64,000 nt of DNA from the NCBI GenBank assembly GCA_900114805.1, contig FOZN01000002.1:744001-808000 (forward strand). Direction: 5' to 3'. The DNA comes from Agrococcus baldri. Lineage in GTDB: Bacteria > Actinomycetota > Actinomycetes > Actinomycetales > Microbacteriaceae. The position numbers and the translations under genes are program-made. Under the pieces are notes generated by a model. The model saw nothing but the letters and a program-made list of their open reading frames with translations. It was not told the DNA's origin and did not search any database. This document shows, piece by piece, positions 28,852 through 38,760 of the stretch; the first letter of the stretch is position 1, and the number at the start of each line of letters is the position of its first letter.

Positions 28852-30012
28852 CTACTTCTTCGCGCGCTTCGCGATGTCGCGGGCGATGATCTCCTTCATG
28901 ATCTCGGTCGTGCCGCCGTAGATCGTCTGCACGCGCGAGTCGCGGAAGGCGCGCGCGATCGGGTACTCCTCCATGAAGCCGTAGCCGCCGTGCAGCTGCA
29001 GGCTCTTCGTGATCACCCGCTGCTCGAGCTCGGTCGCCCACCACTTCGCCTTCGAGGCATCCGCGGTCGTCAGGTGACCCTCGTTGAGCGCCAGGATGCT
29101 GCGCTCGATGTAGGCGCGCGTGACGTCGAGCTCGGTCTCGAGCTCGGCGAGCGTGAACCGCACCGTCGGCAGGTCGCCGACCAGGCCACCGAAGGCCTTG
29201 CGCTGGAAGGCGTAGTCGCGGCCCCAGGTGTAGGCGGCCTCGGCAGACGAGAGCGCGCCGCCGGCGATCGAGAGGCGCTCGCGCGGCAGCCGCTCCATCA
29301 TGGCGATCAGGCCCATGCCGACCTCTCCGACCCGGTTGGCGTCGGGCACCCGCACATCCTTGAAGAACAGCTCCGCGGTGTCCTGCGAGTGCAGGCCGAG
29401 CTTGTCGAGCTTGCGGCCGCGCTCGAAGCCGGCCATGCCGTTCTCGACCAGGAAGAGGGTGAAGCCGCGCGAGCCGGCCTCCGGGTCGGTGCGGGCGAAC
29501 ACGACCACCTTGTCGGCGTGGAAGCCGTTGGTGATGAACGTCTTCGAGCCGTTGAGCACCCATCCGTCGCCCGAGCGCACCGCGTTCGTGCGGATGCCCT
29601 GCAGGTCGCTGCCGGCGTCGGGCTCGGTCATGCCGATCGCGCCGATCGAGGTGCCGGCGGCCATCGGCGGCAGCCACGTCGCGAGCTGCTCGGGCGTGCC
29701 GAGGTCGATCAGGTACGACAGCACGATGTCGTCGTGCACGCCGAAGGTGGCGTTGACGGAAGCGGCGCCGACCTTCGAGAGCTCCTCGCTGATGATCATG
29801 CGGAAGCGGTAGTCGTCGATCTCCATGCCGCCGTACTGCTCGGGGATCGCGAGCCCGACCATCCCGGCCTCGCCCATCTGGCGGTAGAGATCGGGGTCGG
29901 TGAGGCCCTCGGCCTCCCACGTCGCCAGGTTCGGCGCGATGTTGCGGGCGGTGAACTCGCGGACGGTCTCGCGGAACGCCTCGTGGTCCTCGTCGTAGAA
30001 GGTGGAACGCAT
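28852..30012 (-). CDS. acyl-CoA dehydrogenase
   Basis: 386 residues, standard size. TEPDAGSDLQGI and WVLNGSKTFITNG bind FAD; KAFGGLVGDLPTVRF and LQLHGGYGFMEEYPI follow; catalytic Glu in YGGTTEIM. Ninth base after the SDR gene stop, same strand, so one operon. Together with that SDR it resembles 2-methylbutyryl-CoA or short-chain acyl-CoA breakdown. Electrons would pass to ETF encoded at 34926. Confidence 0.92.
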   Translation of the reverse strand: MRSTFYDEDHEAFRETVREFTARNIAPNLATWEAEGLTDPDLYRQMGEAGMVGLAIPEQYGGMEIDDYRFRMIISEELSKVGAASVNATFGVHDDIVLSYLIDLGTPEQLATWLPPMAAGTSIGAIGMTEPDAGSDLQGIRTNAVRSGDGWVLNGSKTFITNGFHADKVVVFARTDPEAGSRGFTLFLVENGMAGFERGRKLDKLGLHSQDTAELFFKDVRVPDANRVGEVGMGLIAMMERLPRERLSIAGGALSSAEAAYTWGRDYAFQRKAFGGLVGDLPTVRFTLAELETELDVTRAYIERSILALNEGHLTTADASKAKWWATELEQRVITKSLQLHGGYGFMEEYPIARAFRDSRVQTIYGGTTEIMKEIIARDIAKRAKK

Positions 30013-30021
30013 CTCGATCTC

Positions 30022-30792
30022 CTATCGGGCTTGCATGCGGATGGCACCGTCGAGCCGGATGGTCTCGCCGTTGAGCATGGGGTTGGCGACGATCTGCGTC
30101 ACCAGCAGTGCGAACTCGGATGGGTCGCCGAGCCGGGCGGGGTGCGGCACCTGGGCGCCGAGCGAGTCGCGCGCCTCCTGCGGCAGCGCTGCGAGCATGG
30201 GGGTGGCAAACAGCCCGGGCGCGATCGCGTTGACGCGGATCTGGCTGGCGGCGAGCTCGCGGGCGATCGGCAGGGTCATGCCGACGACCGCGGCCTTCGA
30301 CGCCGAGTAGGCGGCCTGCCCGATCTGGCCGTCGAAGGCGGCGACGGATGCGGTGGAGACGATCACGCCGCGCTCCTCCCCGCCGGGGCCGCCGACGGGC
30401 TCGAGCTTCGCCATCCGCTCGGCGGCGAGCCGGATGACGTTGAACGTGCCGACCAGGTTGATGTCGACGACGCGCTGGAAGGTCTCGAGCGCGAAGGGGC
30501 CCGAGCGGCCGACGACCTTCGCCGCGTCGGCGACGCCGGCGCAGTTCACGACCAGCCGCAGCGCTCCGCGCGCCCCTGCCGCGTCGAGCGCGGCGGCCAC
30601 CTGCGCCTCGTCGCGCACGTCGGCGGCCACGAAGGTGACGCCCTCGCGCTCGGCGACGGCGTCGGCCGCGGGGGTGCCGCCGAGATCGATGACGACCACG
30701 TGCGCCCCCAGCGCCAGCAGCGCCTCGGTGGTGGCGAGGCCCAGCCCCGATGCTCCACCGGTGACGAGCGCCACCTGTCCGTTCATGTCCAT
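30022..30792 (-). CDS. SDR 3-hydroxyacyl-CoA dehydrogenase (type II, HSD10-like)
   Basis: 256 residues. Cofactor motif GGASGLG, NCAGVA, catalytic Ser in STASVAAF and YSASK. Length and the [27 protein letters not shown] segment fit type II 3-hydroxyacyl-CoA dehydrogenases that act on 2-methyl-3-hydroxybutyryl-CoA in isoleucine breakdown. ATG 30792 with GGAG 5 bases upstream. First gene of the operon with the dehydrogenase. Confidence 0.87.
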
Positions 30793-30904
30793 CTGTGCTC
30801 CATTGCCTCGTGCCGGTCGTGCCTCGTGCCGGTACTGCCTCGTGCCGGGCGCTGTCGACGCCCGACCGTATCTCGCGCCCCCGTCGCCTCGTCCCGCCCT
30901 GTGG

Positions 30905-30971
30905 ATCTCAACGTGTCAGGTGGTCGCTCAGCGCGACTATTCCGTCGAGCAGACACAGGACACGTTGAGAT
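30905..30971. repeat. 67-bp palindromic repeat, copy 1
   Basis: Arms ATCTCAACGTGTC (30905-30917) and GACACGTTGAGAT (30959-30971) around a 41-base centre. Located between divergent operons. Closely related to the elements at 54672-54737 and 56082-56148. Confidence 0.8.
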
Positions 30972-31056
30972 TTCCGCGTGGCTGGCGTGCCGTGCTCCCA
31001 GGATGGTAGATATGTGGATGTCCATGCAACTGCGTGGATGACAAGGATTCGCGCAG

Positions 31057-32352
31057 GTGCGCACAGCGACACGCGACGAAGGGGTCGAGCGCTTGACCAT
31101 GACCATGCCGAGCCGTACCGAGATGAACCGCAGCGAGGCGGGCCAGAGCGAGGCCGGCGCCAGCCAGCCGAGCCAGGGCCTGAGCCCCACGAGCGCCGAG
31201 GAGCGCGCAGCGCTCGTCGAGGCGGTGCGCGACTTCGCCGATGCGCGCCTCGCACCCTTCGCGAACCAGCGCGACGCCGACCACGAGTTCCCCGTCGACA
31301 CCCTCCGCGAGGCCGGCCAGCTCGGCCTCGGCGCCATCTGCGTGCGCGAGGACGTCGGCGGCTCGGGCCTCAGCCGGCTCGACGCGATCGCCATCTACGA
31401 GGAGCTCGCGCGCGGCGACATCGCCGTCGCCACCTACATCTCCATCCACAACATGGTGGTCGGCATGATCGACGCCGAGGGCACCGACGAGCAGCGCCGC
31501 CGCTGGCTGCCGCAGCTGACCGACATGGCCGAGCTCGCGAGCTACTGCCTCACCGAGCCCGGCGCCGGCTCCGACGCCGCCGCGGTCGCCACCACTGCCG
31601 TGCGCGACGGCGACGACTACGTGCTCAGCGGCACGAAGCAGTTCATCTCCGGCGCCGGCACCTCCGCGGTCTACGTCGTGATGGCCCGCACCGGGCTGAC
31701 CGATGATGGCGGCGTCGACCCGGCCAAGCGCGGATCGCGCGGCATGACCGCCTTCGTCGTGCCCGCATCCGCCCCCGGCCTCTCCTTCGGCGCCGAGGAG
31801 CGGAAGATGGGCTGGCACGCGCAGCCCACCCGCGCGGTCGTGCTCGACGGCGTGCGGGTGCCGGCGAGCGATCGACTCGGCGAGGAGGGCGAGGGCTTCG
31901 GCATCGCCATGCGCGGCCTCAACGGCGGGCGCTTGGGCATCGCAGCCGCCTCGATCGGCGGCGCGCAGTTCGCGCTCGAGCGCACCGTCGCGTACGTCAA
32001 GGAGCGCGCCACCTTCGGGCAGCCGCTCGCCACCCGCCAGCACGTGCAGTTCGAGCTCGCCGACATGGAGACCGAGCTGCAGGCCGCCCGCGCGCTGCTC
32101 GAGCGCGCCGCCGCCAAGCTCGACGCGAAGGCGCCCGACGCCCCCGTCGCCTGCGCGATGGCCAAGCGATTCGCCACCGACGCCGGCTTCCGGGTCGCCG
32201 ACCAGGCGCTGCAGCTGCACGGCGGCTACGGCTACCTGCACGAGTACGGCATCGAGCGGGTCGTGCGCGACCTGCGTGTGCACCGCATTCTCGAGGGATC
32301 GAACGAGATGATGCGCATGATCGTCGGGCGCGCGCTGCTCGGCGAGCGATAG
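31057..32352 (+). CDS. acyl-CoA dehydrogenase (isobutyryl-CoA-type candidate)
   Basis: 431 residues from GTG 31057, which has AAGGA 9 bases upstream; ATG 31099 or 31105 are alternative starts and the first 45 residues are low complexity. Core motifs: LTEPGAGSDAAAV, LSGTKQFISGAG, FGQPLATRQHVQFELADMET, LQLHGGYGYLHEYGIERVVRDLRVHRILEGSNEMM with catalytic Glu in EGSNE. The LEGSNE ending and the adjacent hydroxyisobutyryl-CoA hydrolase suggest valine-derived isobutyryl-CoA as substrate. Confidence 0.88.
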   Translation: MRTATRDEGVERLTMTMPSRTEMNRSEAGQSEAGASQPSQGLSPTSAEERAALVEAVRDFADARLAPFANQRDADHEFPVDTLREAGQLGLGAICVREDVGGSGLSRLDAIAIYEELARGDIAVATYISIHNMVVGMIDAEGTDEQRRRWLPQLTDMAELASYCLTEPGAGSDAAAVATTAVRDGDDYVLSGTKQFISGAGTSAVYVVMARTGLTDDGGVDPAKRGSRGMTAFVVPASAPGLSFGAEERKMGWHAQPTRAVVLDGVRVPASDRLGEEGEGFGIAMRGLNGGRLGIAAASIGGAQFALERTVAYVKERATFGQPLATRQHVQFELADMETELQAARALLERAAAKLDAKAPDAPVACAMAKRFATDAGFRVADQALQLHGGYGYLHEYGIERVVRDLRVHRILEGSNEMMRMIVGRALLGER

Positions 32353-32379
32353 ATCTTGAGACGGTACTGACAGGGAGCC

Positions 32380-33465
32380 ATGTCGAACATCACCACCGAG
32401 GTCCGCGGCGCGCTGGGCGTCGTCACCCTCGACCGCCCGGAGGCCCTCAACGCGCTCACCCACGCGATGGTGATGGAGATGGCGGATGCGCTGCGCGCGT
32501 TCGCCGCGGACGACGCGGTCGAGCGCGTGCTCATCACGGGCGCGGGGGAGCGAGCCCTGTGCGCCGGCGGCGACGTGGTCTCGCTGCACGCCGACGTGCA
32601 GTCCACCCGCGGGCAGGGGGCCGCCCGCTTCTGGCGCGACGAGTACACGCTCAACGCGCAGATCGCGCGCTTCCCGAAGCCGGTGGTGGCGCTGCAGCAC
32701 GGCATCGTGCTGGGCGGCGGCGTCGGCGTCTCCGGCCACGCGAGCCACCGCGTCGTGACCGACTCGACGCGCATCGGTTTCCCCGAGGTGACGATCGGCT
32801 TCGTGCCCGACGTCGGCGCCACCTGGCTGCTGACCCGCCGGCGCGGCGAGCTCGGCACGCGCGCCGCCCTCACCGGCGACCACTTCGGCGCCGCCGACGC
32901 CATCGCGCTGGGGCTCGCCGACAGCTACGTGCCGGCCGATCGCCTGGCCGAGCTCGTCTCTCTGCTGGAGACGACGCATCCGGATGCCGCGATCGAGCAG
33001 CTCGCGGCCCCCGCACCTGCCGGTTCGCTGGTCGCGGCGCGGCCGATGATCGACCAAGCCTTCGCCGGCGACGACCCGCGGGCGATCCTCGAGCGACTGC
33101 GCGCGGCCGGCAAGGAGGGCGCGGCGATCGCCGAGACGATCGAGCGCCGCTCGCCGTTCGCCGTCGCCGTGACGCTCGCCGCGCTGCGCCGCGCCCGCGG
33201 GCTGCGCTCGCTCGAGGAGGCGCTCGTGCAGGAGTACCGCGTCTCGCGGCACACCGCGCTCGCGGCCGACTTCAGCGAGGGCGTGCGCGCGCAGCTGATC
33301 GACAAGGACCGCAGCCCGAAGTGGACGCCGTCCTCGCTCGCGGGCGTCACGCCTGCCATGGTGGAGGCGTGCTTCGCGCCGGTGCCCGGTGGCGACCTCG
33401 AGCTGCCGCAGCCGGGCCGACCCGCCGCGGCGCACCGGGTGCAGCCGCAGCCCGACCAGATCTAG
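32380..33465 (+). CDS. 3-hydroxyisobutyryl-CoA hydrolase
   Basis: 361 residues, longer than a simple crotonase. GGGVGVSGHASHRVVTDSTRIGFPEVTIGFVPDVGATWLLTR is split here into its marks: GGGVGVS, FPEVTIG, FVPDVGATW; the FPDVG-type motif and long C-terminal tail (DKDRSPKWTPSSL) separate this hydrolase group from enoyl-CoA hydratases. It releases 3-hydroxyisobutyrate and CoA in valine breakdown. Between the dehydrogenase and hydratase genes, same strand. Confidence 0.88.
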   Translation: MSNITTEVRGALGVVTLDRPEALNALTHAMVMEMADALRAFAADDAVERVLITGAGERALCAGGDVVSLHADVQSTRGQGAARFWRDEYTLNAQIARFPKPVVALQHGIVLGGGVGVSGHASHRVVTDSTRIGFPEVTIGFVPDVGATWLLTRRRGELGTRAALTGDHFGAADAIALGLADSYVPADRLAELVSLLETTHPDAAIEQLAAPAPAGSLVAARPMIDQAFAGDDPRAILERLRAAGKEGAAIAETIERRSPFAVAVTLAALRRARGLRSLEEALVQEYRVSRHTALAADFSEGVRAQLIDKDRSPKWTPSSLAGVTPAMVEACFAPVPGGDLELPQPGRPAAAHRVQPQPDQI

Positions 33466-33482
33466 CGACCACAGGAGTCCGC

Positions 33483-34259
33483 ATGACCGAGTACGAGACC
33501 ATCCGCGTCGAGCGCCGGGGCCGCGTCGCCTGGATCACCCTCGACCGCCCCGAGGCGCTCAACGCGCTCAACGCCCAGCTCATGCACGAGCTCGTCGACG
33601 CGGCGACCTCGCTGGATGCCGATGACGCGATCGGCGCGATCGTGGTGACCGGCAGCGAGAAGGCCTTCGCCGCCGGCGCCGACATCAAGGAGATGGCGTC
33701 GAAGACGACCGCCGAGATGCGCGACGCGAACCACTTCGGGCCCTGGCTCGAGTTCGCGCGCGTCAAGAAGCCGGTGATCGCCGTGGTCTCGGGCTACGCG
33801 CTCGGCGGCGGGTTCGAGCTGGCGCTCATGTGCGATGTCATCCTGGCGAGCGACAGCGCGACGTTCGGCTTCCCCGAGATCGGGCTGGGCGTGATCCCGG
33901 GCATCGGCGGCACGCAGCGCATCCTGCGCATCGTCGGCTACCCGAAGGCTGCGGAGCTCGTGCTCACCGGCCGCCGCATCGATGCGGCCGAGGCGGAGCG
34001 ACAAGGCATCGTCTCGCGCGTCGTCCCGGCGGCCGAGCTGCTGACGCAGACCGAGGAGCTGGCGGCCGCGATCGCGAACAAGTCGCTGCCGGCGCTGGTG
34101 GCGGCGAAGGCCGCGCTCGACGGCGCGCTGGAGACCGGCCTGGAGGCCGGTCTCGCGCTCGAGGCCGAGCAGTTCACAGCGCTGTTCGACACCGCCGATC
34201 AGAAAGAGGGGATGGCGGCCTTCCGTGAGAAGCGCGAGCCCGACTTCACGCACCGGTAG
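33483..34259 (+). CDS. enoyl-CoA hydratase
   Basis: 258 residues. AAGADIKEM, GYALGGGFELALMCDVI and FPEIGLGVIPGIGGTQRI supply the oxyanion hole and both catalytic glutamates. ACAGGAG precedes the ATG. Third gene of the putative valine operon: it would hydrate methacrylyl-CoA. General short-chain hydratase activity is equally possible. Confidence 0.92.
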   Translation: MTEYETIRVERRGRVAWITLDRPEALNALNAQLMHELVDAATSLDADDAIGAIVVTGSEKAFAAGADIKEMASKTTAEMRDANHFGPWLEFARVKKPVIAVVSGYALGGGFELALMCDVILASDSATFGFPEIGLGVIPGIGGTQRILRIVGYPKAAELVLTGRRIDAAEAERQGIVSRVVPAAELLTQTEELAAAIANKSLPALVAAKAALDGALETGLEAGLALEAEQFTALFDTADQKEGMAAFREKREPDFTHR

Positions 34260-34313: not shown

Positions 34314-34847
34314 CTACAGCGGCTCCGCCACCGGCCGCGGGTCCTCGAAGTCGCCCGAGCGCTTCCGCAGCAGCGCGATGATGCGCACCAGCTCTGCCAG
34401 CTCCTCGTCCTCGAGCCCGGTGGCGGTGAACGCCTCGTCGTTGAGCGCGACCGTGGCCCGCTCGACCAGCTCGCGCCCCGCATCCGTGATCGCCAGCACC
34501 GTCGCCCGGCCGTCGGTCGGGTGCGGCTCGCGCGTGACCAGCTCGGCGCGCACGAGCCGGTCGACGGTGCTCGTCACGCTCGTCGGGTGCACCTGCAGGC
34601 GCCGCACCGCCGACTTCATCGGCATGCGCCCCTCGCGGGTGAACGCCAGCAGCCGCAGCACCTCGAAGCGCGCGAACGACAGCGCGAACGGCCGCAGCAC
34701 CGACTCGACCCGCGCCTCCAGCAGCTGCTGTGCACGGTTGACGGAGGTCACGAGCGTCATGCCCGGCGCCGCATCCGCCCAGCCGTTCTCGAGCCACTGG
34801 CGGCGGGCCTCGGCGATCGGGTCGAGCGTCTCTCGCCTCGCGCTCAT
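34314..34847 (-). CDS. MarR family transcriptional regulator
   Basis: 177 residues. Winged helix: FEVLRLLAFTREGRMPMKSAVRRL, VHPTSVTSTVDRLVRAELVTREPHPTDGRATVLAIT with the DGR wing. GAGGAGG precedes ATG 34847. Divergent from etfB, with the inverted repeat TACGG-N5-CCGTA (34861-34875) between them. Likely controls itself and electron-transfer flavoprotein genes. Confidence 0.87.
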   Translation of the reverse strand: MSARRETLDPIAEARRQWLENGWADAAPGMTLVTSVNRAQQLLEARVESVLRPFALSFARFEVLRLLAFTREGRMPMKSAVRRLQVHPTSVTSTVDRLVRAELVTREPHPTDGRATVLAITDAGRELVERATVALNDEAFTATGLEDEELAELVRIIALLRKRSGDFEDPRPVAEPL

Positions 34848-34925: not shown

Positions 34926-35738
34926 ATGAAGATCGTCGTGCTCGTCAAGCCCGTCCCCGACACCTACGGCGACCGGGTGCTCAACCTCGAGACCGGCCTC
35001 GCCGATCGCGCCGCGAGCGAGACCGTGCTCGACGAGATCACCGAGCGCGCGCTCGAGGCGGTCATCCGGCACGCCGAGGAGTCGGCGAAGTCCGGCGCCG
35101 GCGACGTCGAGGTGATCGCGATGACGATGGCGCCCGCCGAGTCGCAGTCGACGCTGCGCAAGGCGCTCGCCATGGGCGCCGCTTCTGCCGTGCACGTCGC
35201 CGACGAGCGGCTCGCCGGCGCCGACCTGGTGCGCACCGCCGAGGTGCTCGCCGCAGCGCTGCGCCGCGCGGGCGCCGACCTGATCGTGGCCGGCAACGGC
35301 TCGACCGACGGCAGCGGCGGCGTCATGCCGTCGATGCTCGCCGAGCTGCTCGAGCTGCCCGCGGCGACGCGACTCGAGACGCTCGAGATCACGGCGGATG
35401 CGGTGCGCGGCACCCGCGAGACCGATGGCGGCACGATGACGGTCACCGCGGCACTGCCGGCGGTCGTCTCCGTCACCGAGCGCATGCCCGACCCGCGCTT
35501 CCCGGCGCTGAAGGGCATCATGGGCGCGAAGAAGAAGCCGCTCGAGGTGCTCACGCTCGACGACCTCGGCGCGGAGCTCGAGGCCCTCGGCGTCGAGCTC
35601 GACGAGACCGCATCCGCGCGATCGATCATGGTCGCCGCCACGCAGCGCCCCGCGCGCGAGGCGGGCGAGATCATCACCGACGACGGCACCGCGGGGGAGC
35701 GGATCGCCGCCTTCCTCGCCGACCGGCGACTGGCCTGA
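34926..35738 (+). CDS. etfB: electron transfer flavoprotein, beta subunit
   Basis: 270 residues. MKIVVLVKPVPDTYGDRVLN start, AGNGSTDGSGGVMPSMLAELL, and MPDPRFPALKGIMGAKKKPLE signature. AMP-binding partner of EtfA; the heterodimer takes electrons from acyl-CoA dehydrogenases such as those at 3283, 28852 and 31057. GAAGGGAG precedes ATG. Eleven bases before etfA. Confidence 0.95.
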   Translation: MKIVVLVKPVPDTYGDRVLNLETGLADRAASETVLDEITERALEAVIRHAEESAKSGAGDVEVIAMTMAPAESQSTLRKALAMGAASAVHVADERLAGADLVRTAEVLAAALRRAGADLIVAGNGSTDGSGGVMPSMLAELLELPAATRLETLEITADAVRGTRETDGGTMTVTAALPAVVSVTERMPDPRFPALKGIMGAKKKPLEVLTLDDLGAELEALGVELDETASARSIMVAATQRPAREAGEIITDDGTAGERIAAFLADRRLA

Positions 35739-35749
35739 GGAGCACCGAG

Positions 35750-36751
35750 ATGACCAGCACTGAGATGACCAGCAACGAGCCCATCCTGACCCTGCTGCTC
35801 GCCGGGCCGGCCGTCGCCGACGAGGCGCCGGCGCTCGCCGACGGAGCCGCAGAAGCGCTCGGCGCCGCAGCGCGGCTCGGCACGCCCGTCGCGGTGGTGG
35901 TCGGCGCCGCCGACGCGCTGCCGCAGCTGGCCGAGGCCGCCGCGTCGCTCGGCGCCGCGCGCGTGCTGACCGCCGCGGTCGACCCCGCACAGCTCGGCGC
36001 TCCCGTGGCCGACGCCCTCGCCGCCGCCGTCGCGCAGGAGGCGCCGGCCGCGGTGCTGGTGTCGCACTCGATCGAGGGGTCGGATGCGGCGGGTCGCCTG
36101 GCCGCGCGCCTGCGCGCCCCGCTCGCGGTCGACGCCGTCGCGGTGGAGCGCGACGACGAGGGCATCGTCGCGAAGCACTCCGTGTACGGCGGCGGCTTCG
36201 AGGTGACCTCGGCGGCGACCTACGGTCCACTCATCGTGACGCTGCGGCTCGGCGCCATCGACCACCGGGCCGAGGCCGCCGCACCGCAGGTGTCCGCGCT
36301 GGAGGTCGGCGCCTCCGGCCGGCCCGCCGCGGCGGTGGAGGGCTTCGAGTCCGTGGTGCAGGCATCCGAGCGGCCCGATCTGCGCTCGGCGAAGAAGATC
36401 GTCTCGGGTGGTCGCGGGCTCGGCTCGAAGGAGCAGTTCGCGCTCGTCGAGCAGCTCGCCGACACCCTCGGTGCGGCGATCGGCGCCTCGCGCGCCGCAG
36501 TCGACGCGGGCTACGTCGATCAGTCGCTGCAGGTCGGCCAGACCGGCACCTCGGTCTCGCCCGACCTCTACATCGCGGTCGGCATCTCCGGCGCGATCCA
36601 GCACCGCGCGGGCATGCAGACGGCGAAGACGATCATCGCGATCGACAAGGACGCCAACGCGCCCATCTTCGAGATCGCCGACCTCGGCGTCGTCGGCGAC
36701 CTGTTCACGATCGTGCCGCAGCTCGTGCAGGCGCTCGAGGCGCGGAAGTAG
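35750..36751 (+). CDS. etfA: electron transfer flavoprotein, alpha subunit
   Basis: 333 residues. C-terminal FAD domain with SGGRGLGSKEQFALVEQLAD, GYVDQSLQVGQTGTSVSPDLYI and AVGISGAIQHRAGM. The ATG at 35750 follows GAGGAG; 35765 is an alternative. Five bases before the cytochrome gene, on the same transcript. Confidence 0.95.
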   Translation: MTSTEMTSNEPILTLLLAGPAVADEAPALADGAAEALGAAARLGTPVAVVVGAADALPQLAEAAASLGAARVLTAAVDPAQLGAPVADALAAAVAQEAPAAVLVSHSIEGSDAAGRLAARLRAPLAVDAVAVERDDEGIVAKHSVYGGGFEVTSAATYGPLIVTLRLGAIDHRAEAAAPQVSALEVGASGRPAAAVEGFESVVQASERPDLRSAKKIVSGGRGLGSKEQFALVEQLADTLGAAIGASRAAVDAGYVDQSLQVGQTGTSVSPDLYIAVGISGAIQHRAGMQTAKTIIAIDKDANAPIFEIADLGVVGDLFTIVPQLVQALEARK

Positions 36752-36756
36752 CAGCG

Positions 36757-38760
36757 ATGACGATCGGTCAGCACCCGGGATCCGTGCGCCGCGGCCTGCC
36801 GCGCGCGCCCGGCGGCGAGCCCTGGCCGCCCGCCGATGCCGCAGTGCCTGCCGCCCCTGCGGAAGCTGCCCCGCCGGTCGAGCAGGCCGCGGCCGCGCCG
36901 CCGGTCGAGCCGCCACCGGCCGTCCTGCAGGCAGAGCAGGCCGCCGCCACCCCCGCGCCGACGGCCCCGCAGGCTGCGCCCGCGCCCGCGCCGGTCGCCA
37001 CCCCCGCTGCAACCGGTATCGAATTGCCGTCTGAGGCACCCTCGGAGCGACCAACCGGTACCGGTGTGCCGAGTGCTGCTGCCGGAACCCTCCGCCGCGG
37101 CCTCCCGCGCACGGCCGGCGGCGAGCCCTGGCCGCCTGCCGACGCTGCTGCCCCCGCATCGAGCAGCGCCGGCGCTCCGCCTGCCGAGACGGCCCCCGCT
37201 CCCACCTCCGCCTCCACCTCCTCCGCCGCAGCGACCCCCGCCGCCAACGCGGGCGCCACCGCAGCCGCCGCGACCACCGCACCAGACGCGCCCGCAGCAG
37301 CAGCGGCAGCCGCGCCGCAGGTATACGGCGATTCGCTCACAGCGGCGGCCGATGGGAGCAAATCGCCCTATACCTCTGGTGAGGCGGGGGTAGAGGCGAC
37401 AATCCCCGCAAGTGGGATCCGCCGCGGACTGCCGCGAGTCGCCGGCGGCGAGCCCTGGCCGACGACCGCACCCGCTGCCGCGCGCGCTGAGATGGCGCAA
37501 CCGGCGCGACCGGCGGGCGAGAGCGCGCCCGATGCGACGCCTCGCGCGGAGGCGCCGGTGGCCGCTCCCGTCGATGTGGCGCACACCGTGCGGCCCGAGG
37601 CCGCAGCCGCGCCCGCTGCGCCATCTGGCCCCACGGCGGAGCCCGCGGCTGCCGCCGAGCCTGCGGCGGCCTCGACGCCCACGCCAGCGCCTGCCGCTGC
37701 GCCCGCGCCTGCCCCCGAGCCTGCCGCTGCGCCCGCGCCTGCCCCCGAGCCTGCCGCTGCGCCCGCGCCTGCCCCCGAGCCTGCGGCTGCCAAGGCCTCG
37801 CCAGCCAAGCCCGCGCCCGCAGCCAAGCCAGCAGCGGCCGCCAAGCCCGCGGCGGCGCAGCCCGTCCCGCTCCCGACCACGCCCAGGCAGTGGATCGGTG
37901 CCGGCGTGCTCGTCGCGCTCGCGATCGTCGGCCTCGCCACGATCGTCGTCGCCATCGCCCGCTGGATCGCCGGCCTCGAGCCGGTCGCCGCGTTCATCGC
38001 GCAGTACCCCGGCACGTACGACCTCCCCGAGGGCGCCCCCGTGGGCCTGCCGGTCTGGCTCAACTGGTCGCACTTCTTCAACCTGTTCTTCATCGCGCTG
38101 ATCATCCGCAGCGGGCTCCAGGTGCGGAGCGAGCGCAAGCCACCCGCGTACTTCACCTCGAAGCGCACCGGCCACAAGGCATCCATCACCGTCTGGCTGC
38201 ACACGAGCGTCGACATCCTCTGGGTGCTGAACGGGCTGATCTTCGTCATCCTGCTGTTCGCGACCGGCCAGTGGATGCGCATCGTGCCGACCAGCTTCGA
38301 GGTCTTCCCGCACGCGATCTCCGCCGCGCTGCAGTACGCGACGCTCGACTGGCCGCTCGAGAACGGCTGGGTCAACTACAACGCTCTGCAGCAGCTCGCC
38401 TACTTCGCCACCGTCTTCCTCGCGGCGCCGCTCGCGATCATCACGGGTGTGCGGATGAGCGGCTGGTGGCCCGAGAACGAGCGGCTGAACCGCGCCTACC
38501 CGGTCGCGTGGGCGCGCGCGATCCACTTCCCGACGATGCTCTACTTCGTCGCCTTCATCGCCGTGCACGTGCTGCTGGTGCTCACCACCGGAGCGCTCCG
38601 CAACCTCAACCACATGTTCGCCGCGAAGTCCGACGACGACTGGATCGGCTTCCTGCTCTTCGTCGGCGCCATGCTCATCACTGCGGCGGCCGTCGTCGCC
38701 GCCCGACCCACCCTGCTCTCGCCCATCGCGAGCCGCTTCGGCACCGTCACCGCGCGGTAG
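36757..38760 (+). CDS. Ala/Pro-rich protein with C-terminal b-type cytochrome domain
   Basis: 667 residues. Residues 1-375 are disordered Ala/Pro and contain three copies of RRGLPR-x2-GGEPWP (11-24, 113-126, 222-235). The rest is a membrane cytochrome b561/hydrogenase-b type domain: about four to five helices, with candidate haem ligands His439, His482, His590 and His604, the last two 14 apart in one helix. ATG 36757 is five bases after etfA, so translation is linked. I infer electron transfer from ETF to the quinone pool; no ETF-quinone oxidoreductase is visible nearby. The role of the repeats is unknown. Confidence 0.8.
   Translation: MTIGQHPGSVRRGLPRAPGGEPWPPADAAVPAAPAEAAPPVEQAAAAPPVEPPPAVLQAEQAAATPAPTAPQAAPAPAPVATPAATGIELPSEAPSERPTGTGVPSAAAGTLRRGLPRTAGGEPWPPADAAAPASSSAGAPPAETAPAPTSASTSSAAATPAANAGATAAAATTAPDAPAAAAAAAPQVYGDSLTAAADGSKSPYTSGEAGVEATIPASGIRRGLPRVAGGEPWPTTAPAAARAEMAQPARPAGESAPDATPRAEAPVAAPVDVAHTVRPEAAAAPAAPSGPTAEPAAAAEPAAASTPTPAPAAAPAPAPEPAAAPAPAPEPAAAPAPAPEPAAAKASPAKPAPAAKPAAAAKPAAAQPVPLPTTPRQWIGAGVLVALAIVGLATIVVAIARWIAGLEPVAAFIAQYPGTYDLPEGAPVGLPVWLNWSHFFNLFFIALIIRSGLQVRSERKPPAYFTSKRTGHKASITVWLHTSVDILWVLNGLIFVILLFATGQWMRIVPTSFEVFPHAISAALQYATLDWPLENGWVNYNALQQLAYFATVFLAAPLAIITGVRMSGWWPENERLNRAYPVAWARAIHFPTMLYFVAFIAVHVLLVLTTGALRNLNHMFAAKSDDDWIGFLLFVGAMLITAAAVVAARPTLLSPIASRFGTVTAR
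37691..37780 (+). repeat. three tandem 30-bp units inside the cytochrome gene
   Basis: Three identical 30-base units, in frame, encode Ala/Pro decapeptides (APAPAPEPAA). Exact DNA identity indicates recent slippage and possible length variation between strains. Confidence 0.85.

Follow-up and report, generated by a model that had tools for sequence, protein, structure and literature searches.

Known ETF Acceptors and the etf-Cytochrome Operon of Agrococcus baldri

Electrons of the electron-transferring flavoprotein (ETF) reach the quinone pool via the ETF:quinone oxidoreductase (ETF-QO or ETFDH), which passes them through iron-sulfur (Fe-S) clusters. The present analysis deals with an operon of Agrococcus baldri, in which the genes for the beta and alpha subunits of ETF, etfB and etfA, are followed by a gene encoding a membrane cytochrome b. 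The operon is located in a window of 64,000 nucleotides (assembly GCA_900114805.1, contig FOZN01000002.1, positions 744,001 to 808,000), in which all coordinates below are counted. A second type of acceptor, EtfD (Rv0338c, MSMEG_0690; PDB 9ojn), likewise passes electrons through Fe-S clusters, which number four and belong to a soluble CCG/ferredoxin region, and contains one b heme (PMC13083937). In an AlphaFold3 model of mycobacterial EtfD, ETF sits on a disordered region with repeats (PMC13083937), and EtfD and EtfBA are described to co-occur in actinobacteria (PMC8593149). Among the titles and abstract openings listed by searches of the open-licence PubMed Central (PMC) library, none describes an etf operon with a cytochrome of the kind studied here.

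The operon is encoded on the forward strand. EtfB (34926..35738) has a match to PF01012 (4.2e-29), and its solved relatives are 6fah_B (1.3e-29) and 1efp_B (1.6e-24). EtfA (35750..36751) combines PF00766 (5.6e-35) with PF01012 and is related to the solved chains 1efp_A (3.7e-52) and 1t9g_R (6e-52). Together they make up a canonical EtfBA pair, whose ETF and ETF_alpha domains are encoded by two neighbouring genes. The third gene (36757..38760) encodes a cytochrome b of 667 amino acids, which is devoid of cysteine and scores 27.1 bits against PF01292 (prokaryotic cytochrome b561; cut-off 30.1). All three genes are arranged head to tail, 11 and 5 bases apart, as given in a first-pass annotation of the window; its description of the genes as fused in one operon is correct for the gene string, while no protein fusion is present. 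That annotation regarded the cytochrome as a possible alternative route from ETF to quinone, a reading that gains support from comparative genomics. It is likely that the cytochrome accepts electrons from ETF and feeds them into the quinone pool. As an explanation of the observations as a whole, it fits best that the product of the third gene is the membrane acceptor of the only ETF of the organism, which we consider reasonably probable.

The genome of the host (2,904,476 bases in 7 contigs, completeness rated 100%) contains one copy of ETF alpha, nine matches to PF00441, the C-terminal domain of acyl-CoA dehydrogenases, and one match to menD above the cut-off, the latter of which suggests menaquinone as the quinone of the host. 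Searches of the whole genome revealed no match to the ETF-QO domain PF05187, which is also missing among the Pfam matches of the cytochrome, and no match to the CCG domain PF02754 of EtfD, and a search with an EtfD protein as query found nothing at 1e-20; the query itself is authentic, as it matches chain 9ojn_A at 2.8e-183. Hence, the earlier remark that no Fe-S ETF-QO is seen near the operon is true for the entire genome at the thresholds used, and the proposed role of the cytochrome withstood the search for EtfD and ETF-QO.

By its defining features, the window protein is neither ETF-QO nor EtfD. It would share with ETF-QO the job of transferring electrons from ETF to quinone; however, it lacks both the FAD domain and the Fe-S domain of that enzyme. 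With EtfD it has in common the proposed transfer from ETF to menaquinone via a membrane b heme and a disordered region with interspersed repeats, a feature described for EtfD in PMC13083937. In contrast to EtfD, it possesses four invariant histidines, no cysteine, and neither a CCG nor a ferredoxin domain. Moreover, the tail is located at the C-terminus of EtfD but at the N-terminus of the window protein, and the repeats differ.

Conservation of the Operon and Exclusion of EtfD

The gene order etfB-etfA-cytochrome is conserved among relatives. In a sample of 198 genomes of the window's order, relatives of the cytochrome were found in 52 genomes, and 52 places were fetched: 23 copies with a tail bearing the sequence RRGLP (24 with the window), 19 close relatives without this tail and 10 distant ones; weak matches in genomes G070 and G112 were left unfetched. 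EtfA is encoded directly upstream of 22 of the 23 tailed copies, and the remaining one, in G097, is truncated where its contig stops; this genome has an etfA followed by the tail motif at the end of a different contig. None of the 19 tail-less close relatives adjoins etf, and three of them have etfB 7.6 to 7.8 kb downstream. A neighbour comparison across these 19 loci, which disregarded the cytochrome itself and overlapping frames, found shared genes mainly in a group of four congeneric genomes (f6 g9).

A second set consists of the 80 best-matching of at least 559 relatives from named genomes. In eight of these loci, the contig runs out no more than 400 bases before the membrane domain, which leaves 72 testable loci. 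The tail motif is present in 67 of them, 66 of which have etfA upstream, and etf is found at none of the five loci without the motif. Loci with motif and etfA come from Agrococcus, Agromyces, Microbacterium, Glutamicibacter, Arthrobacter, Leucobacter, Cryobacterium, Homoserinimonas, Sinomonas, Georgenia and Haematomicrobium, among others, and the tailed form reaches Corynebacterium as well (named set and G204). Among the best 80 kept, the closest named relative is Agrococcus baldri, with a membrane domain that is 88% identical. In a sample of 396 genomes of the phylum, 19 matched at 1e-25; seven of these belong to the window's order and match nearly the whole domain, and the other 12 are partial matches, located in open reading frames 500 to 695 residues long.

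Within the order sample, ETF alpha is present in 146 genomes, EtfD in 59 and ETF-QO in 12 (ten above the cut-off). All 24 genomes with a tailed cytochrome possess ETF alpha, and none has EtfD or ETF-QO. Fisher's exact test of the tailed cytochrome against EtfD gives p = 1.4e-6 for the 198 genomes, a value uncorrected for their relatedness. In 17 genomes the tail-less cytochrome is the sole form; 12 of these possess ETF alpha, and neither EtfD nor ETF-QO occurs in any of them. Among the 110 ETF-bearing genomes with neither form of the cytochrome, EtfD is present in 58, ETF-QO in 12 and neither acceptor in 46. The pattern can also be seen within a single genus (f7 g10), whose 14 genomes contain EtfD (five), the tailed cytochrome (six) or the tail-less one (three) without any overlap. 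In contrast to the co-occurrence of EtfD and EtfBA described in PMC8593149, a group of ETF-bearing actinobacteria without detected EtfD is found here. In families f16 and f20, etfBA adjoins the EtfD gene (ten loci, L117-L121 and L128-L132), unlike in other families, in which the EtfD gene stands apart from etfBA. Genomes without any candidate acceptor are found, for instance, in families f14, f15 and f10, and further ETF acceptors probably remain to be discovered in the order.

Membrane Domain and Candidate Heme Ligands

The membrane domain (37873..38757) comprises 295 amino acids and is predicted by AlphaFold2 to form six long helices (pLDDT 91.9, pTM 0.85). Four histidines are unchanged across all 43 aligned relatives: H67 (codon 38071..38073), H110 (38200..38202), H218 (38524..38526) and H232 (38566..38568), in the numbering of the membrane domain. 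Averaged over the 43 rows, lysine and arginine residues are concentrated in the loop between helices 2 and 3 (7.1), the loop between helices 4 and 5 (3.7) and the C-terminal end (3.5), with 0.8, 1.0 and 1.2 in the remaining loops. This distribution places both termini in the cytoplasm; H110 and H218 would accordingly be located near the cytoplasmic side, with H67 and H232 further out. The four invariant histidines suggest that two b hemes are stacked across the membrane; H110 and H218 would probably bind the inner heme, and H67 and H232 the outer one. Cysteine never occupies the same alignment column in two or more of the 43 rows; a conserved site at which cysteines could ligate an Fe-S cluster is accordingly absent.

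Judging from the histidines and the weak family match, the window protein is probably a cytochrome of the b561/hydrogenase type. Like members of the PF01292 group, which includes hydrogenase cytochromes and cytochrome b561, it has two histidines 14 residues apart in one helix. It differs from this group in its partner, a soluble cytoplasmic ETF, and in an extra N-terminal helix and the long motif-bearing tail. Its membrane domain is also homologous to that of cytochrome b/molybdopterin fusion proteins (class 3), with 33-45% identity, but the C-terminal PF00174 domain of these proteins is absent from the window protein.

The N-Terminal Tail and Its Repeated Motif

The membrane domain is preceded by a tail of 372 amino acids (36757..37872), which consists of 35% alanine and 21% proline, has no Pfam match and is predicted to be disordered: in the AlphaFold2 model (15 sequences), pLDDT is below 50 for 331 of the 667 residues, nearly all of which are located in the tail. 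The tail contains three copies of the motif [LVI]RRGLPRxxGGEPWP, which had escaped the first-pass annotation. These are VRRGLPRAPGGEPWPP (36784..36831), LRRGLPRTAGGEPWPP (37090..37137) and IRRGLPRVAGGEPWPT (37417..37464). The tail has only five aromatic residues, including three tryptophans, one per motif copy.

The 24 tails of the order sample contain R.GLP at 74 places; of the letters that follow, the arginine after GLP is conserved in 68, the two glycines in 68 and 66, the tryptophan in 67 and the proline after it in 67. In the named set, which overlaps the order sample, the corresponding numbers for 197 places are 195 (arginine), 183 and 183 (glycines), 187 (tryptophan) and 188 (proline); in both tallies, the letters R.GLP are fixed by the search and carry no evidence. 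Most proteins have two to four copies, spaced mostly by about 30 to 130 residues, and in G071 the RRGLP core is kept and the PWP part is gone. In 1,706,511 bases of fetched loci, which are centred on ETF, cytochrome and EtfD genes, the PW-type motif is confined to these tails. The sole match outside the listed loci is the one behind etfA at the contig end of G097, whose cytochrome is located at another contig end. Contigs frequently end immediately before the membrane domain (L202, L211, L227, L231, L237, L259, L274 and L276; genomes G097, G198, G204 and G206), where gene calls may be wrong; the breaks probably lie in the repetitive GC-rich tail.

Long tails were also found in 6 of 40 EtfD loci (L087, L088, L089, L101, L105 and L110), all from family f18 and with the repeats DPWDE or APSWE, and EtfD of L083 (G034), from the same family, is likewise long-tailed with such repeats. 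The f18 tails are C-terminal and rich in alanine and proline, with regularly repeated motifs. In the remaining 34 EtfD loci, the run-on comprises at most 44 residues (L119 is cut by the end of the stretch). The EtfD tails were considered as homologues of the cytochrome tail and rejected, since the likeness consists of a tryptophan-containing repeat in an Ala/Pro tail and no more.

Evolution of the Pairing

The ETF alpha subunits of the operons form one clade that excludes the further ETFs encoded in these genomes, with SH-aLRT supports of 100 (102 rows) and 98 (110 rows); the first tree lacks L191, which was dropped by the program, and the second lacks 13 long-branched or partial rows. The cytochrome therefore seems to travel with its own ETF. 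Further, 16 residues of EtfB and 11 of EtfA distinguish the 88 ETFs of the operon type from other ETFs (57 and 56, respectively). Four tail-less cytochromes nest inside the tailed clade. ETF alpha is missing in three of these genomes (G069, G199 and G200), and in the fourth, G198, ETF followed by tail motifs is found at a contig end. These cases look like a joint loss of tail and ETF, which may have been a single event, as the four cytochromes group together.

In a Salinibacterium metagenome-assembled genome (MAG; L280:1-3240), etfB, etfA and a tail-less cytochrome follow each other in a row. The cytochrome of L280 scores 34.3 bits against PF01292, above the cut-off, and falls outside the tailed clade, in its sister group. 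The pairing of etf and cytochrome either arose twice or preceded the tail. Corynebacterium dentalis (L264:3254-4858) has a cytochrome that is nested in the tailed clade and carries a Pro/Ala tail without the R.GLP motif; no etf gene is located nearby, and the single ETF alpha of this organism is encoded on a different contig.

Proposed Mechanism and Alternative Explanations

In the proposed mechanism, acyl-CoA dehydrogenases would reduce ETF in the cytoplasm, and the disordered tail would keep ETF near the membrane via its repeated [LVI]RRGLPRxxGG[ED]PWP motifs. The ETF flavin would then donate electrons directly to the inner b heme (probably H110/H218), with neither an Fe-S cluster nor a second flavin in between, and from there the electrons would pass via the outer b heme (probably H67/H232) to menaquinone. 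Acyl-CoA oxidation lies above menaquinone in potential, and Bacillus-type succinate:menaquinone reductases are thought to use the proton motive force for such an uphill step. By analogy with these reductases, the two-heme path across the membrane could allow the proton motive force to drive the transfer from ETF to menaquinone, although such coupling is considered less likely than not. The tail may well dock ETF, because the motif follows etfBA and because ETF is positioned on disordered repeats in the AlphaFold3 model of EtfD described in PMC13083937. Taken together, these features could define a third, unrelated class of ETF:menaquinone oxidoreductases, which combines Fe-S-free flavin-to-heme transfer, a two-heme path that spends proton motive force and a multi-motif, ETF-capturing tail, and which replaces EtfD in a number of lineages of actinobacteria, each time accompanied by an ETF of its own; in this full form, the proposal is rather doubtful. 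An ETF acceptor free of Fe-S clusters would show that direct electron transfer from an ETF flavin to a b heme is feasible, and it would explain fatty-acid respiration in EtfD-less Agrococcus, Agromyces, Microbacterium and relatives. It would also provide a function for a protein that is matched weakly by Pfam and NCBIfam, and a simple system for a question raised by mycobacterial EtfD, namely whether disordered multi-motif tails recruit ETF.

Several observations weigh against a role of the cytochrome as the ETF acceptor. The window protein remains below the PF01292 cut-off, the membrane domain, compared by sequence with solved structures, gave no match at E 1, and none of the 133 rows of a fold search reached E 0.001 or better (E. 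coli hydrogenase-1 cytochrome b: E 3.0, TM 0.58 by target). Tail-less relatives are found in five genomes without ETF alpha, all of which belong to the window's own family, so the cytochrome family has other work too. All four distant relatives that were scanned (L304, L307, L073 and L075) are fused to a C-terminal molybdopterin domain (PF00174). The Corynebacterium MAG G204, one of 20 named genomes searched, has EtfD in addition to a contig-split tailed operon. Locus L268 has the motif, yet no etf gene within 4 kb upstream, and the L280 operon demonstrates that the genes can be partnered without a tail; a strict pairing of tail and etf was rejected on account of these two loci. Lastly, 46 of the 146 ETF-bearing genomes of the order have neither EtfD, ETF-QO nor either form of the cytochrome. 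Further acceptors therefore probably exist, one of which could also serve in A. baldri; thus, the absence of EtfD alone proves little, and the absence of both EtfD and ETF-QO was rejected as proof.

These 46 genomes and the tail-less relatives in ETF-less genomes are the main points in favour of an accessory role, in which the true acceptor is another protein and the cytochrome, co-transcribed with etfBA, delivers electrons to, e.g., oxygen or iron. This explanation appears unlikely, as the tight operon link, the exclusion of EtfD and the joint loss with ETF point to a central role. It is even less probable that both proteins are partners with a reverse flow, from menaquinol via the cytochrome to ETF, which would then serve a reductive reaction. 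The molybdopterin domain of the distant relatives is related to MsrP and sulfite dehydrogenases, and MsrP-type systems draw on quinol, which would fit such a direction; however, the neighbouring acyl-CoA dehydrogenases and enoyl-CoA hydratases look catabolic, and the single ETF would have no outlet without an oxidising acceptor. Moreover, EtfD and the tailed cytochrome are mutually exclusive in the 198 genomes, as expected if both do the same job.

The cytochrome could also be the acceptor and its tail bind acyl-CoA dehydrogenases or another protein, or merely space the complex. Both the tail-less operon of L280 and C. dentalis, with its motif-less Ala/Pro tail and ETF alpha on another contig, would be in line with such a role of the tail. 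Nevertheless, presence of the motif tracks etfBA in the order sample (22/23 with versus 0/19 without the tail) and the named set (66/67 versus 0/5), and within the 1.7 Mb of fetched loci the PW-type motif occurs only in these tails. A tail that serves another purpose than docking is therefore regarded as the less probable option, albeit one with a real chance.

Genomic Surroundings

Genes of the beta-oxidation type fill positions 28852..34259 beside the etf operon. On the reverse strand, an acyl-CoA dehydrogenase (28852-30012) and a short-chain dehydrogenase (30022-30792) were assigned by Pfam. On the forward strand, a further acyl-CoA dehydrogenase (31057-32352; Pfam) is followed by two genes of the enoyl-CoA hydratase/isomerase family, the first of which (32380-33465) was named from the translation of its open reading frame only and the second of which (33474-34259) by Pfam. 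The window as a whole contains four of the nine PF00441 matches of the genome, two of the four in one frame, in agreement with the several acyl-CoA dehydrogenase genes mentioned in the first-pass annotation. Upstream of etfB and divergent from it lies a gene for a MarR-like regulator (34314..34847, reverse strand), which was named by eye and is a possible regulator of the etf-cytochrome operon. A homologue of this gene is found in the same divergent place in at least 27 of 87 loci with etfBA, a lower bound since the flanks are mostly short.

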